Shown in pieces: positions 8,602 through 28,168 of a stretch of DNA of 28,168 nt; the stretch's first letter is position 1; each line of letters opens with the position of its first letter. Below the pieces are notes generated by a model. That model was given only the letters and a program-made list of their open reading frames with translations, had not been told where the DNA came from and searched no databases. Position numbers and translations under genes: made by a program. The stretch comes from a virus: positions 1 through 28,168 of the IMG/VR virus record IMGVR_UViG_3300015360_000157; one strand, written 5' to 3'.

Positions 8602-9522
8602 ATGTCTTTGTATCCCACACACGTCGAAATCAACGAAGAAAATATTCTCAAAATAACAAACACGTTTAAGAGTGCCTATAAACAGATTGTTTCGGAGATT
8701 AGCACGGCAACTGATTTTGGGGTCAAAAATCGTCGCGCAATTCTTGCACAAATTGATGTAATACTTACTACTTTGGGAACTAATACGCAGGAATTTTTGG
8801 CTAAAGAATTGCCCGAATATTATAAATCAGGTGCTGATGATGCAGTAAAGCAACTATCAAACGTTGGGGCAGATGTGGGCGTATCAGAGGGATTTAATCG
8901 TCTGCATGAACAAGCTATTGTTGCATTGGTTGATGACACCGCCAAAGCGTTCGGAGAAAGTCTGACAGGAGTCGGAAGAAGTGCAGACTTGTTGTTGGGA
9001 AAGACAACGCGTGAGACTATAACCCAAAAGTTGGCAGAAGGGTTGATCGGCGGTAACAATTTAAAAGCGGTGAAACGTACAATCAAGGGTATTTTGCAAG
9101 AACAGGGGTTGGACGCGCTAAAAGATAAGGGCGGACATGGTTGGACTCTTGATAGGTATGCTGAAATGCTATTTCGTACCAAAGCAGTGGAATCACGAAA
9201 TAGAGGCCTAGTAAATCGAATGGTAGAAAACGAATACGACTTGGTACAGGTTTCAAACCATTTCGGAGCATGTCCCCTATGTGCGCCGTGGGAGGGCAAG
9301 ATCTTGTCGTTAACTGGTGTGTCCAAGGGGTATCCGACATTGTCTGACGCGGAATCTGGGGGTTTGTTCCACCCAAGTTGTAGACATAGTATAAATGTAT
9401 TAATTCCATCGCTCGCTAAGATGACCAGGGCATACTATCCAGATGAAAGAACAAAATTTATTTCTGAATCTGAAATCGCCAAAGCCAGTAAGTTGGATCT
9501 TGAGAAGAACGCCAAGAGTTGA
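8602..9522 (+). CDS. Minor capsid protein 2 / MuF-like head morphogenesis protein
   Basis: A 306-residue protein. Its C-terminal third carries the Cys/His pattern of phage minor capsid protein 2 and SPP1 gp7/MuF proteins: FRTKAVESRNRGLVNRM, then GACPLCAPWEGKI and GGLFHPSCRHS. The paired CxxC and HPxCRH residues probably bind metal. The N-terminal two thirds are helical. In related phages a few copies sit inside the head near the portal and affect DNA exit. It follows the portal by 17 nt and precedes the scaffold, the standard order. TATGCT and TCTATA elements lie just upstream of the ATG but at unusual spacing. Confidence 0.87.
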   Translation: MSLYPTHVEINEENILKITNTFKSAYKQIVSEISTATDFGVKNRRAILAQIDVILTTLGTNTQEFLAKELPEYYKSGADDAVKQLSNVGADVGVSEGFNRLHEQAIVALVDDTAKAFGESLTGVGRSADLLLGKTTRETITQKLAEGLIGGNNLKAVKRTIKGILQEQGLDALKDKGGHGWTLDRYAEMLFRTKAVESRNRGLVNRMVENEYDLVQVSNHFGACPLCAPWEGKILSLTGVSKGYPTLSDAESGGLFHPSCRHSINVLIPSLAKMTRAYYPDERTKFISESEIAKASKLDLEKNAKS

Positions 9523-9548
9523 CATTTTATTGATCGATTGTGTATATT
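9519..9548 (+). promoter_or_regulatory. Sigma-70 promoter for the scaffold/capsid genes
   Basis: A perfect TTGACA (9519-9524), overlapping the stop of the minor capsid gene, an 18-bp spacer, then TATATT (9543-9548). Transcription would start near 9555, giving a leader of about 50 nt before the scaffold ATG. This is the strongest conventional promoter seen and suits high capsid expression. Confidence 0.72.
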
Positions 9549-9603: not shown

Positions 9604-10293
9604 ATGGCAGAAAATACAAATAGTGATGCCACCACAAGTGGTACACAAACTACTGGTAGTGTAGCCGTGACCGACACGACAAAAACGAGAGATACACAAA
9701 ACCAAAACGTGTTCGATACTAAAAACATCGGTGATGATGACTTTTCAAAAGTTTTCGATGACCCGAGAGTTTTTTTGCATCCACGATTCAAAAGCCTAAA
9801 CGAACGCGCCAAAAAAGCGTCTGAGTACGAAGCCAAGTTAAACGAGGCAGAGGAAACGAAGCTATCTGAGAACAAAAAATTCGAGGAACTGGCCGCAAAA
9901 CGTGCTGAAGAATTGTCGGGTGTGAAAACAAAATACACACAAACCCTTCAGGACATGCAGATAATGAATGCAGCGGCAAAAGTAGGCGTGATTGATTTGG
10001 ATGCAGTTTTAAAACTAATCGATCGATCTAAAATTTCAGTAAGTGACAGCGACAATACTGTTTTAGGTGCTGATGAGGCATTAACGACATTGTTGGACAA
10101 ATCGCCATATCTTAAAGGTAAAGCAGCAAACGTAACCGTTGGATCCGCAACAGGACCCGGCGAAGAGTCAACTGCTGGTACTAAGAAATTTAAACTTTCT
10201 CAATTACAAATTCCTTCATTTTGGAGAGAAAACGAGAAAGAAATCCAGGTCGCATTAGCAAATAACCAAGTCGAAAACGACATGGTTAAATAA
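9604..10293 (+). CDS. Capsid scaffolding protein
   Basis: A 229-residue acidic protein with the layout of phage scaffolds (minor structural GP20-like). It has a Thr/Ser-rich disordered start and a central coiled coil rich in Glu, Lys and Ala (about residues 64-125, from NERAKKASEYEAKLNEAE onward). A VGVIDLDAVLKLID helix follows, which is typical of this family, then a short basic C-terminus that would bind the coat protein. It guides prohead assembly and leaves before DNA packaging. It sits directly before the major capsid gene. No Shine-Dalgarno sequence is evident in its A-rich leader. Confidence 0.85.
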   Translation: MAENTNSDATTSGTQTTGSVAVTDTTKTRDTQNQNVFDTKNIGDDDFSKVFDDPRVFLHPRFKSLNERAKKASEYEAKLNEAEETKLSENKKFEELAAKRAEELSGVKTKYTQTLQDMQIMNAAAKVGVIDLDAVLKLIDRSKISVSDSDNTVLGADEALTTLLDKSPYLKGKAANVTVGSATGPGEESTAGTKKFKLSQLQIPSFWRENEKEIQVALANNQVENDMVK

Positions 10294-10305: not shown

Positions 10306-10369
10306 CCCCTTTTAGGCTTCAAATTAGACCTATTTTATTTATTATAGGAATTCAAAAAAAAGGGGGTGA
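10306..10369 (+). promoter_or_regulatory. Structured leader of the capsid gene with occluded G-rich site
   Basis: CCCCTTTT (10306-10313) can pair with AAAAGGGG (10358-10365). Inside lies a second hairpin, CCTAT (10329-10333) with ATAGG (10344-10348). The 3' arm overlaps AGGGGGTGA (10361-10369), a Shine-Dalgarno-like sequence 14 nt before ATG 10384. The structure could modulate capsid translation or act as an intergenic stabiliser. Confidence 0.4.
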
Positions 10370-10383
10370 AATATTAAAAATAT

Positions 10384-11298
10384 ATGATAGAAAATGTAAT
10401 GAACACAACGACCGACGCGTCGTTTATTCCAACGATCATTTCTAATAAGGCTCTACAACGTTTCGGCTCATACCTGAATCTGGCTAGGACTATTAGTAGA
10501 AATACCGATTGGACGACAGCGACCGAAGGTACAGTTCTTAAAGTTCCAAAAACTGGTACAGTTTCCGCTAACGATAAAGTTGTTGGTAATAACTTCACAA
10601 AGCAAAACCCAACAGCCACCGATGTGAGCGTTACTCTTAACAAAAATAAAGAAGTAACACTAACTATCGATGATGTCGATAAAGTGGTTACAAACCAGGA
10701 CACTCAAATGCGTTATGCAGAAGATGGAGCTATTGCACTTGCAGAAGCGGTGGAAACATCCGTGGCTCAATTGCACACTTCACTTTCAAGTACCGTTACA
10801 TGGAATCGTACGAGTGCAGCCACTATTGACACCTCAATGCTGGCCATTCGCAAATTTTTCACAGACCAAAAAGTACCAAAGACCGAACAACGTTATATGT
10901 ACGTTGACTCAACCGTCTTTAATGATCTTTTGGGTGTGCAAAAATACACCGATCAATCATGGCGCGGTAGTCAAAACACAGTAGCAGATGGTCAAATGAT
11001 CAGAACCTACGGTTTTGAAATTTGGGAATCCCAAATGATTGACTACACCGGGTCACCTGGTGCTTATCACAATTTGGCTTACACCAAAAACGCATTCGTT
11101 CTTGCTTCACGACCATTACCAAGTCCAAAAGGGTTTGGTGGTGTTTCAACAATCATGAATGATGAAAGTGTTGGTTTGAGTATGCGAACTCTATTTTGGT
11201 ATAACGCCGACCTCGGCGCTCACCAATTGACCCTTCAAATTCTCTATGGCGTAGCCGTTTTGGATACACGCAGAGTTGTTGAAATCGAGAGTTTCTAA
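10384..11298 (+). CDS. Major capsid protein, P22 coat-like HK97 fold
   Basis: A 304-residue protein directly after the scaffold. Its features fit the P22-like branch of HK97-fold coat proteins: an N-terminal arm with TTTDASFIPTIISNKALQRF, the EGTVLKVPKTGTVSANDKV strand pair, LTIDDVDKVVTNQDTQMRYAE before the spine helix, then IRKFFTDQKVPKTEQRYMYVDS and a beta-rich P-domain end. It forms the icosahedral shell. Two in-frame ATGs (10384, 10399) are close; I chose the first. A terminator-like hairpin and T-run follow, so the transcript probably ends or thins here before the glycosylation region. Confidence 0.85.
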   Translation: MIENVMNTTTDASFIPTIISNKALQRFGSYLNLARTISRNTDWTTATEGTVLKVPKTGTVSANDKVVGNNFTKQNPTATDVSVTLNKNKEVTLTIDDVDKVVTNQDTQMRYAEDGAIALAEAVETSVAQLHTSLSSTVTWNRTSAATIDTSMLAIRKFFTDQKVPKTEQRYMYVDSTVFNDLLGVQKYTDQSWRGSQNTVADGQMIRTYGFEIWESQMIDYTGSPGAYHNLAYTKNAFVLASRPLPSPKGFGGVSTIMNDESVGLSMRTLFWYNADLGAHQLTLQILYGVAVLDTRRVVEIESF

Positions 11299-11314: not shown

Positions 11315-11350
11315 TCCCATCTGCAACTTATACTTGTGGGTGGGTTTTTT
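11315..11350 (+). terminator. Probable rho-independent terminator after capsid gene
   Basis: AAAAC plus CCCA at about 11310-11319 can pair with TGGG plus GTTTT at 11337-11348, giving an imperfect stem with a 1x3 internal loop. It is followed by seven T's (11344-11350). The position, 10-50 nt after the capsid stop and just before a new promoter, supports a terminator or attenuator. The imperfect stem suggests it is leaky. Confidence 0.45.
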
Positions 11351-16031: not shown

Positions 16032-17087
16032 ATGAAACGCTCCCGTGCTGCCATCCTTCCGTATCCAGGGGATCCATTTCTTCTTAACTATTGGCTAGAA
16101 ATCTATTATAAGTTTTGGGAACCAGAAGTCGACAAGCTGTATATAGTTCTTAATTCTCCAATAGAAGACAGTGTCGTCGAGCATATCAAATACTTATGCA
16201 ACGACGAGGGTAAAAAGATTAATTTTACCTATATTCCTAGACAAATGGAGCATGGCGACGTCTTGAAAATTGCATTGGAGGCAGCCACCGAAAAATACGT
16301 CATGTTGATAGAGGACGACGCTTTCATATTCAAATCAGGTGTTGTAAATTATTGTTTTGAACTGCTCGAAAGTGGCCAATATGACATAGTTGGAAGCAAG
16401 CGTGGAAGTTGTAGTGCTGAGATATTGGAAGCGGCAAAAAACCGCTGGGGGTTAAATTATAGTGGCCATGGCGATCAAGGGTGCAATTTCTGGCCATGCT
16501 ATTTCTTCTCAGAACGACAATTATTACTAAACACTGACCGGCACTTTAGCGCACGAGCTTGGACTATAGGGGAAACGGTTTCATCCCTTGGCTACGTCGT
16601 CGAGGTGCCGGTAATTGCTGGCGATACTTTTGTAAATACAAGTTTACAGCTACAAAACATTGTTCCGCAGACAAGAATTAAGTATTTGCCCCAAAACCAC
16701 GGCAGTCCAGAAGATTTGCAGCATTATGAGCGACATAGTGACCTATTTGATGGTACGGCATGGTGGACGCATATAGGCAGTTTGAGTAGTGGTGTGGGTG
16801 GGATACTTATGGATGGCAACAATCGGTCACTAGCTAGACGTAAAAAGGATCCTGAGGGGGCAGAAACTGTATTAAACAAGCAGTGGTGTCAGACAACACA
16901 AGAACACCACGAGTTTGAGCGCAGGGTGCATTGGTGGCTTACATTCTGGGAAAAAAGAGTACCAGGCGAACTAAAAGAGTTTGCGCAGTTGTACAGAATA
17001 GCGATAGACAGGGTGATTACCCAATACGACCTGGACATTAATTTAATAAGACAGGGACAGAGAATATATAGGACACTGGGTTTATGA
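16032..17087 (+). CDS. Glycosyltransferase-like protein, GT-A type
   Basis: A 351-residue protein with the features of a GT-A enzyme. The N-terminal strand-helix units (AAILPYPGDPFLLNYWLEIYY, DKLYIVLNSP) lead to YVMLIEDDAF (E94, D95, D96), a DxD-like metal and nucleotide-sugar site. A GSKRGSC loop and a Trp/Cys-rich GCNFWPCYFF acceptor-side segment follow. The C-terminal 100 residues are helical and Trp-rich and do not look like a GT domain. The family assignment is by fold pattern, not a named family. Overlaps the following gene in ATGA; the two encode similar N-terminal layouts. Confidence 0.68.
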   Translation: MKRSRAAILPYPGDPFLLNYWLEIYYKFWEPEVDKLYIVLNSPIEDSVVEHIKYLCNDEGKKINFTYIPRQMEHGDVLKIALEAATEKYVMLIEDDAFIFKSGVVNYCFELLESGQYDIVGSKRGSCSAEILEAAKNRWGLNYSGHGDQGCNFWPCYFFSERQLLLNTDRHFSARAWTIGETVSSLGYVVEVPVIAGDTFVNTSLQLQNIVPQTRIKYLPQNHGSPEDLQHYERHSDLFDGTAWWTHIGSLSSGVGGILMDGNNRSLARRKKDPEGAETVLNKQWCQTTQEHHEFERRVHWWLTFWEKRVPGELKEFAQLYRIAIDRVITQYDLDINLIRQGQRIYRTLGL

Positions 17088-17797
17088 TCACTGATTTGAT
17101 TGTCACCTGGCCAAGAAATTGCGATTATCCCTTGTGGCGGCAATTCATAAGGGACAATAGGACTCGATTTAACGAGGTGATAATTTCGTTTATGGAAACA
17201 AACCAAGGCGAGGACTACCGTTTGGAATTGACAGAAATGATGCGTAATGATTATGTACTGACAATCCAGCCGCCATTAATTATCGCTGGCGAAGATTGGC
17301 GTAATGCTTCAATAAATTCGGCGTTGCTTCATTCGTATAATGCGCCGTGGGTTTGGTTTACAGAACAAGATTTTTTCCCCAAGGATGGTTTCTGGGAAGA
17401 AGTCCAAAGAATGCAAGATGAGGGGTGCAATGTCATTGCAGTTTATCAAGGGGACAGAATGCACCCATGTTGCATATTTATGAAACGAGAAATATTAAAC
17501 AAGACGCATAAAAACTTTGGAATTATCCCTGATATTGCGGATCATTTTTCTTTAATTCAAAAAGACCTTGAATCAATTGATGATTCTATTATTGGTGTTA
17601 TTTCTCCAAAACTATATACACACATGAATGGTTTGTCGCACAACTGGAGTTTGTTAGTTTCTGGCCAGATGCCAAACCACAATCCAGACCAATTTTTCGA
17701 CTATTTAATGAGTTGTTCTAGGCTTAATATTCCAATTCCAGAACATTGGTGGAACATGGCCAGTGCGGGAATAGAACGGTCATATTATAAAGAATAA
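17084..17797 (+). CDS. Glycosyltransferase-like protein, short GT-A type
   Basis: A 237-residue protein starting with a Rossmann-like strand (TDLIVTWPRNCDYPLWRQFI) and a second (FNEVIISFMETN). PWVWFTEQDFFPK follows, where E94-x-D96 stands where GT-A enzymes have DxD. NVIAVYQGDRMHPCCIFMKRE matches the acceptor-side strand of GT-A folds. It is shorter than most GT-A enzymes and may be a domain-minimal or divergent member. It is the last gene of the first sugar operon; the C/G-run element follows immediately. Confidence 0.6.
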   Translation: MITDLIVTWPRNCDYPLWRQFIRDNRTRFNEVIISFMETNQGEDYRLELTEMMRNDYVLTIQPPLIIAGEDWRNASINSALLHSYNAPWVWFTEQDFFPKDGFWEEVQRMQDEGCNVIAVYQGDRMHPCCIFMKREILNKTHKNFGIIPDIADHFSLIQKDLESIDDSIIGVISPKLYTHMNGLSHNWSLLVSGQMPNHNPDQFFDYLMSCSRLNIPIPEHWWNMASAGIERSYYKE

Positions 17798-17809
17798 ACA
17801 CAAAATGTA

Positions 17810-17904
17810 CCCAACCCCCCTCCCCCACTCCCCCACCGTCAAAAAGTGGGTGTTTCGAGGCTAGAGTAGGGGGACACCCCCGAATAGGGGATAGTGGGGG
17901 AGTG
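17810..17904. repeat. C-run/G-run element with 11-bp inverted repeat and G-quadruplex motif
   Basis: This intergenic block differs sharply in composition from its surroundings. C-tracts of 3, 6, 5 and 5 bases at 17810-17834, with linkers of 2, 1 and 3 nt, give a canonical G-quadruplex motif on the - strand and an i-motif on the + strand. CACTCCCCCAC (17826-17836) is an exact inverted repeat of GTGGGGGAGTG (17894-17904). Between them GGGGG-ACA-CCCCC (17869-17881) is a second hairpin, and the same C5 can instead pair with GGGG at 17887-17890. It separates two transcription units and may end or pause transcription. Confidence 0.75.
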
Positions 17905-17912
17905 AGTCAAAA

Positions 17913-17918
17913 TAGTAT
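17913..17918 (+). promoter_or_regulatory. -10 element, leaderless for the gene at 17925
   Basis: TAGTAT (5 of 6 bases match the -10 consensus) ends 6 nt before ATG 17925, the spacing seen for other genes here. No -35 match is visible in the G-rich sequence upstream. Confidence 0.45.
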
Positions 17919-17924
17919 ACATAT

Positions 17925-19042
17925 ATGAAAAAAAACAAGCATTATCGAGTATTTACAGACTTTCATCACGCATCACTTCTGCAATCATTTATATTGTTAT
18001 TTGAGAAGCGTTTGGGTGGCCAAGTGTATCGGCCAATAGGTCGAGAATGGTTTGATCAAGGATTCTGGAAAATATACGACCACCCTGCTACCGTAGAACA
18101 GTATTTAAGTATTGGTGGAGCTACACCAGATGGCACGGCTAAACTAAATGAAGTTTTAACAACAGGTGAAGATTTTGATGGTATTTCCACTATTTACAAT
18201 TGCCAGGATATTGATAGTGGGCAGACAAACAAAGCAATCACTTTTGATGGCTTCATGTCCAGTCACTTCGACATTGTCATTGCGTCTATTCCGGCGCACA
18301 TTGAGCCATTCAAACGATTATGCGAACTGCATCCAGATCATCCGAAATTTATTTTTCAGATTGGCAATTCCTGGACGGTTGACGCCGGCTTATCTCCAAA
18401 CATTATGGCATCGGCCTTGATCGATAATGTACCAGCAGATATTCACTTTATTACATACCACCAAGAGTTTGATTTAATGTTGTTTCACCCAAGAACTAAC
18501 ATAAACGGAAGATGGAACAAACACAACTTTGATGTTATGCCAGAAAACAACGTGTATTCATTTATAAACTGTTTTGACAGTGCTGGACATTTTGCCCAAG
18601 ATTGGCAATTGTTTACACAAGTTGAGGCAGCCATGCCCGACTACAAATATAAAGTTTATGGTGGCCAATGTAGAGACGGGTCTGCAAATGGTGCAACAGA
18701 AGTGGCAAAAAAGATGCGAGAGGCTATGTTTATATGGCATACCAAGTTTGGCGGTGACGGATACGGACATGTTATCCACAATGCTCCAGCAGTTGGTAAA
18801 CCTTTAATTGTGAAGAAACAATACTATAGTGGAAAGATAGCCGAACCTCTTTTAATCGACGGTGAGACATGTTTAACCATAGACGGTTTGGATTGTACAC
18901 AGGTTATCAACAAAATACGGCACTTCTCAAATCCAGATTTATATATACCAATGAGCAAGGCGGCATATTCAAAATTCAGGGAAGTTGTGAACTTTAATGT
19001 CGAAGCTGACAAACTTGCGGATTTTTTACTTTGCTTAAAATA

Positions 19043-19043
<1 letters not shown>
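17925..19043 (+). CDS. Glycosyltransferase-like protein, divergent GT-B
   Basis: A 372-residue protein with a probable GT-B layout. The first domain starts HYRVFTDFHHASLLQSFILLFEKRLGG, then FDIVIASIPAHIEPFKRL and KFIFQIGNSW. The second domain carries YKYKVYGGQCRDG and the donor-site region GGDGYGHVIHNAPAVGKPLIV. The EX7E motif is degenerate: Asp and Asn stand in for the two Glu. So it is either a different clade (some glycan-processing GT-B enzymes lack EX7E) or catalytically altered. First gene after the C/G-run element and immediately before the collagen-like fibre gene, which makes that fibre a candidate substrate. Confidence 0.66.
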
Positions 19044-27695: not shown

Positions 27696-28168
27696 ATGTC
27701 TTTTGATCTTGGCTCAGTGGTCGCACACATTAAAGCGGATATTTCTGGTTTTCAGGATGGTTTAAATAAAGCCCATTCTGAAGTTGGAAGTTTTACCAGT
27801 AAAGTTTCTGCTGGATTTGGAGCGTTAACTAGGATTGCGGGTGTGGCAGGTCTTGCGCTTGCGGGTGCAGGCATAGCAGGTGCAAAAGTTGGACTTGACT
27901 CGGCCGCCAAGTATGAGCAATCCACGATTGCATTTACTACGCTTCTAAAAGATCGAACAAAAGCACTTGAAACCCTAAAGGTTATCGAAGAAGACGCAAA
28001 GAAAACACCGTTCGATTTGGCACCACTGATTGACATGAATCAACGATTGATCGGCGCAGGAATGAGTGCAGAGGGGGCTAGAAAGACTGTTTTAGGCCTT
28101 GGCGACGCTGTATCTTCTACTGGTGCCGGATCGGCTGAGATGATACGTATCGGTAATACAATTGGTCA
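27696..28168 (+). CDS. Tape-measure protein, N-terminal part (cut by window end)
   Basis: The first 157 residues of a longer protein. It opens DLGSVVAHIKADISGFQDGLNKAHSEV, the classic start of phage tape-measure proteins. A Gly/Ala-rich hydrophobic helix (AGVAGLALAGAGIAGAKVG, about residues 48-66) follows, then AAKYEQSTIAFTTLLKDRTKALETLKVIEEDAKKTPFDLAPL, the conserved head domain. It sets tail length and passes into the host membrane on infection. It follows the chaperones, as expected. The end is not in this window. Confidence 0.92.
   Translation, partial: MSFDLGSVVAHIKADISGFQDGLNKAHSEVGSFTSKVSAGFGALTRIAGVAGLALAGAGIAGAKVGLDSAAKYEQSTIAFTTLLKDRTKALETLKVIEEDAKKTPFDLAPLIDMNQRLIGAGMSAEGARKTVLGLGDAVSSTGAGSAEMIRIGNTIG

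Follow-up and report, generated by a model that had tools for sequence, protein, structure and literature searches.

A family of paired-box elements in late-region gaps of uncultured phages, possibly a protein-bound DNA site

Paired operator or box arrays act on DNA through looping or bending, and in cosB of phage lambda the R-boxes are placed around an IHF bend. Repeats built of C- and G-runs are known from cyanobacteria, where heptanucleotide units form tandem arrays. The element described here is located in a gene gap of a phage fragment, and its box sequence is unlike any box known to us. It belongs to a family of DNA elements carried by phages. Our tentative reading is that its paired boxes would be bound by protein and looped to form a control point of the late gene block; we give this reading a probability of roughly 0.42.

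The window, i.e. the whole stretch of DNA analysed, is a phage fragment, a virus record of 28,168 bases. All its genes are on the + strand, including those for terminase, portal, capsid, glycosyltransferase, collagen-like and tail proteins. The element lies in a non-coding gap of 127 nt (17798..17924, + strand), which is the largest in the window; the stretch 27766-28168, considered as a longer gap, is merely the tape-measure frame running past the window end. Upstream of the gap, an open reading frame of the sugar region (17084..17797, +) encodes 237 aa. Searches against Pfam and PHROG gave no match for this gene, and twenty viral-contig relatives of it were found, which, leaving aside the same phage, are 35-62% identical. 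The downstream open reading frame (17925..19043, +; 372 aa; alignment A1) is conserved together with the upstream gene in relatives. The first-pass annotation had placed the element exactly between two transcription units; this is partly borne out, since the element lies exactly between two co-directional genes. Elsewhere in the window, a consensus promoter (TTGACA-18-TATATT, 9519-9548) is present upstream of the scaffold and capsid genes, and the capsid gene is directly followed by a textbook terminator (11316-11344) that ends in a T7 tail. Shine-Dalgarno-like sequences are nearly absent upstream of the start codons, and the stretches preceding these are A/T-rich, which is a clue to the host.

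Inside 95 nt, six C/G runs of at least five bases were read from the sequence, namely C6 17815-17820, C5 17822-17826, C5 17830-17834, G5 17869-17873, C5 17877-17881 and G5 17896-17900, the exact tract lengths resting on a single record. None of 300 dinucleotide-preserving shuffles of the window gave more than three, their highest count, and the clustering of the runs is far above chance. The exact 11-bp inverted repeat reported earlier is also present (CACTCCCCCAC at 17826-17836 and GTGGGGGAGTG at 17894-17904, with 57 nt between the arms), together with an imperfect 15-nt repeat (17820-17834 and 17888-17902). Taken alone, the exact repeat is unremarkable, since 0.9 such repeats within 80 nt are expected by chance per window. 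The four C-tracts said to satisfy the quadruplex rule on the minus strand do so at 17810-17834, and two quadruplex patterns were observed in the window against 0.16 expected. Nevertheless, this minus-strand pattern was absent from the relatives' elements that were scanned, the only occurrence being on the other strand (L011). A functional G-quadruplex or i-motif as the active feature is therefore very improbable, its potential not being kept in relatives.

In a second assembly of almost the same phage, 99.84% identical, contig L003 ends at 17811 and contig L002 starts at 17877, and the 65 nt in between (17812..17876) are missing. The assembly breaks exactly at the element, which suggests that this sequence is difficult to read or varies within the population, and which fits the earlier worry about an assembly artefact. 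However, the boxes and the core recur independently in relatives from many other samples. The element is therefore regarded as real, and an artefact as extremely improbable.

The search for the same element in relatives, suggested by the first-pass annotation, was made through homologs of the upstream and downstream genes, 80 loci being retained out of 129 relatives in the downstream-gene search. It revealed a look-alike in the same gene gap in about 16 diverged relatives, and the junction is retained in relatives whose proteins are roughly 50-60% identical. Within each locus, the element words are almost confined to that single spot. Other relatives are without the element, and in several of them the two genes abut; no close relative with an empty site was found. 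In the tree of the downstream gene, many forks of which are unresolved, presence and arrangement of the element vary between neighbours. Since both change among relatives, the element is not essential. In three relatives, genes of HNH-type endonucleases, recognised by their motifs by eye, occupy precisely the interval that separates the element (or its place) from the downstream gene (L005 10905-11390; L040 2484-3020; L014 10844-11323). These genes are apparently of two unrelated sorts, and the gap between the element and the downstream gene looks like a repeated landing site for them.

The unit shared by the element family is a box of 13 nt, RGTRGGGGAGWGG, usually present in at least two copies and in either orientation. 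Between the boxes, the family core consists of AGGCTAAAA, usually an A-tract, and GGGGNACA (alignments A2 and A3). The box scan of the window located two inverted boxes (C-boxes) on the - strand: CCACTCCCCCACC at 17825..17837, which agrees with the consensus at 13 of 13 positions and spans the left arm of the exact repeat, and an extra one, CCCCTCCCCCACT, at 17817..17829 (12/13). Two G-boxes were located on the + strand, AATAGGGGATAGT at 17883..17895 (10/13), whose start lies 58 nt beyond that of the C-box at 17825, and AGTGGGGGAGTGA at 17893..17905 (12/13), which holds the right arm. The core of the window, AGGCTAGAG..GGGGGACA (17858..17876, +), corresponds to the family consensus AGGCTAAAA..GGGGNACA, and unlike in most family members the A-tract precedes it. 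A model of the element matched the window at 17853-17906 with an E-value of 2.8e-5, the window itself being among the 16 training sequences.

Direct boxes around the core have start-to-start distances of 53, 53, 54, 54, 55, 55 and 55 nt, and the starts of an inverted box and the next G-box are 54-60 nt apart, both values coming from a box scan in which the choice of box boundaries is coarse. In helical turns, the paired boxes are separated by about five to five and a half. At the glycosyltransferase locus the spacings come from members reached through protein homology, where no scan dictated them, and those of L026, L030 and L031 derive from a scan permitting 36-66 nt. A later scan, in which 39-69 nt were allowed, added two phage groups that have C-boxes, again with 53 and 54 nt (L247, L248), and two other groups with 46 and 50 nt. 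In most members the box is repeated at a fixed spacing, exceptions as well as new cases being seen; the outliers are L037 (81 nt), L012 (59 nt), L253 (46 nt) and L256 (50 nt), and the box arrangement of L008 is odd. The box preceding the core occurs in either orientation at nearly constant spacing, and four members (L010, L011, L034, L035) possess G-boxes only, with no C-run arm. Because the box occurs in both orientations, the C/G-run hairpins and the minus-strand quadruplex rule are read as its by-products. In L257, a textbook terminator (GGGGCGTTTCGCCCC with a T8 tail) lies between two G-boxes 53 nt apart (10061-10124). The paired boxes of L253 (871-1393) adjoin a gene that resembles, by eye, Lsr2, a nucleoid protein of actinobacteria; the G+C content of this record is high (0.61).

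Pattern scans revealed similar elements in very different uncultured phages, in other gaps of the late region. They are located upstream of small or large terminase genes (L026, L030, L031, and by inspection only L261), of scaffold/capsid genes (L114, L087) and of a head-tail adaptor (L071), or downstream of a likely major tail protein (L118; L116 is similar). A sequence-only model gave matches in 26 of 50 whole records, some of which had trained it, nearly always at a single locus. The element is mostly co-oriented with the neighbouring genes. A divergent neighbour was found in L242/L030 and L263, and in L256, L261 and L262 the element is reversed or ambiguous, since inverted boxes read alike on both strands. 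The box is common to phages that differ in terminase and portal families, and the use of one module, at about one place per genome, by phages whose capsid and terminase genes differ suggests a host factor common to them. Record L239 (G021) carries two separate elements, one (2550-2621) before a small gene of unknown function that itself follows a glycosyltransferase-like gene, and the other (10308-10409) before the large terminase gene.

The usually single locus per record, with paired boxes flanking a core, would also suit a packaging (cos/pac-type) or replication start site, that is, one initiator-bound point per genome. In L026, L030 and L031 the element directly precedes a small or large terminase gene, and contigs of the second assembly end at it, both of which are consistent with such a site. 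However, many copies lie far from terminase genes, those of the window family included, the two contigs are parted by 65 nt and not by a clean cut, and the ends of the other records lie elsewhere. In addition, a terminase-specific site is unlikely because the box is shared across different terminase families, which weakens the corresponding cosB reading. A packaging or replication start is, on this evidence, unlikely. We likewise judge it improbable that the element is a MITE- or REP-like palindromic repeat, selfish or shuffled horizontally, which is acquired by phages of a shared host and has no role in the phage. Neighbours do differ between phages, loss and rearrangement are frequent on the tree, and the two-sided boxes resemble terminal repeats; nevertheless, a phage record usually has one locus and not many copies, the same junction is kept across relatives of roughly 50-60% protein identity, and the orientation mostly follows that of the genes.

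The first-pass annotation also proposed that the element could block or end transcription or protect RNA. As an RNA hairpin boundary, a stem between C-box and G-box would pause or end upstream transcription, or protect mRNA ends. The position in a gap and the predominant co-orientation with transcription are consistent with this, and strong folds are predicted in most family members. In the window the predicted fold is strong in itself (-41.2 kcal/mol), but with a z of only -1.28 against same-composition shuffles it is ordinary for its composition. Matching changes in both arms, as expected of an RNA stem, were detected in L007 and L012 and are the best evidence for RNA. However, in a coarse arm-swap test of 27 members, pairing between a member's own arms was not stronger than that between arms exchanged among phages (p = 0.91; p = 0.75 when restricted to the same locus), and the members with G-boxes only lack a C-run arm. 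The terminator scan of 17798-17924 revealed no terminator-like site and no T-run after the stem, although the phage has an ordinary terminator after its capsid gene. Rfam 15, searched at gathering and permissive thresholds, gave no match. With no co-evolution of the stem and no T-run, the RNA hairpin boundary appears rather unlikely. Of the first-pass reading, a real landmark that looks functional stands, a look-alike recurring at the same place in diverged relatives, while quadruplex and stem pairing are not supported; a recombination or packaging landmark, also suggested there, is conceivable. Consensus promoters of the TTGACA..TATAAT type were found 37-44 nt after the element in L116, L118 and L247; over all members, -10-like hexamers downstream of the element were not enriched over shuffles (p = 0.16).

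Because the quadruplex tracts are not conserved, a U-tract is lacking and own arms have no pairing advantage over swapped ones, a site on double-stranded DNA, to which a putative shared and probably host protein would bind, is preferred to an RNA hairpin terminator. The members with G-boxes only, and the free orientation of the boxes at near-constant spacing, argue for the DNA site as well. In the proposed mechanism, one DNA-binding protein would bind both boxes, and since unrelated phages with different terminase and portal families use the same box, we infer that it probably comes from a shared host. Two bound boxes about five turns apart would then loop or bend the double-stranded DNA across the core. 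The looped complex may act as a control point where the late gene block begins, here the glycosyltransferase, collagen-like and tail genes, and separate this block from the upstream genes. A broader form of the idea, which we hold as doubtful, is a nucleoprotein site that unrelated phages of a common uncultured host group share, at which one DNA-binding protein of the host loops two G-boxes about five turns apart and marks one point per phage genome, be it a late-gene switch or a start of replication or packaging. With the element as a sequence marker, orphan phages could be linked to hosts. Quadruplex and hairpin predictions from a single sequence can mislead, and here the comparison with relatives shifted the reading from fold to box.

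The gene pair was compared by BLAST with phages, and the element sequences with phages and plasmids; nothing meaningful was detected. Model searches of 247 genomes of one phylum (reached through a Bacteroidales genome) and of 398 genomes of another (reached through a genome titled Actinobacteria) were empty; as neither had a positive control, both results show little. Within the literature library searched, the box string gave no relevant match, one unrelated plant paper containing the string. The genome pattern scan matched palindromes of the form CACTCCCCCACCCGGCCACCC..GGGTGGGGGAGTG in alphaproteobacterial genomes (L119-L237), many of them Sphingomonadales, with up to many copies per genome; these were set aside as decoys with the same ends and no core.

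The 11-nt ends of the alphaproteobacterial palindromes are nearly identical to those of the element. However, the palindromes form a compact G+C-rich hairpin of about 58 nt, reach many copies in some genomes and lack the AGGCTAAAA core, and the likeness is probably coincidental or unrelated. The cyanobacterial heptanucleotide repeats appear to share CCCCACT-like units with the element, whose boxes are instead about 55 nt apart and occur once per phage. Similar to intrinsic (rho-independent) terminators, the element has a G+C-rich inverted repeat in an intergenic gap, but it differs in having no U-tract, a loop of about 57 nt and arms that do not co-evolve. The element family itself seems undescribed, while a paired-box control element is of a familiar kind. 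Compared with arrays of the lambda cosB type, the element is shared across different terminases and its binding protein is only putative; it has in common with them short repeated boxes, a fixed spacing, a bendable core and free orientation.
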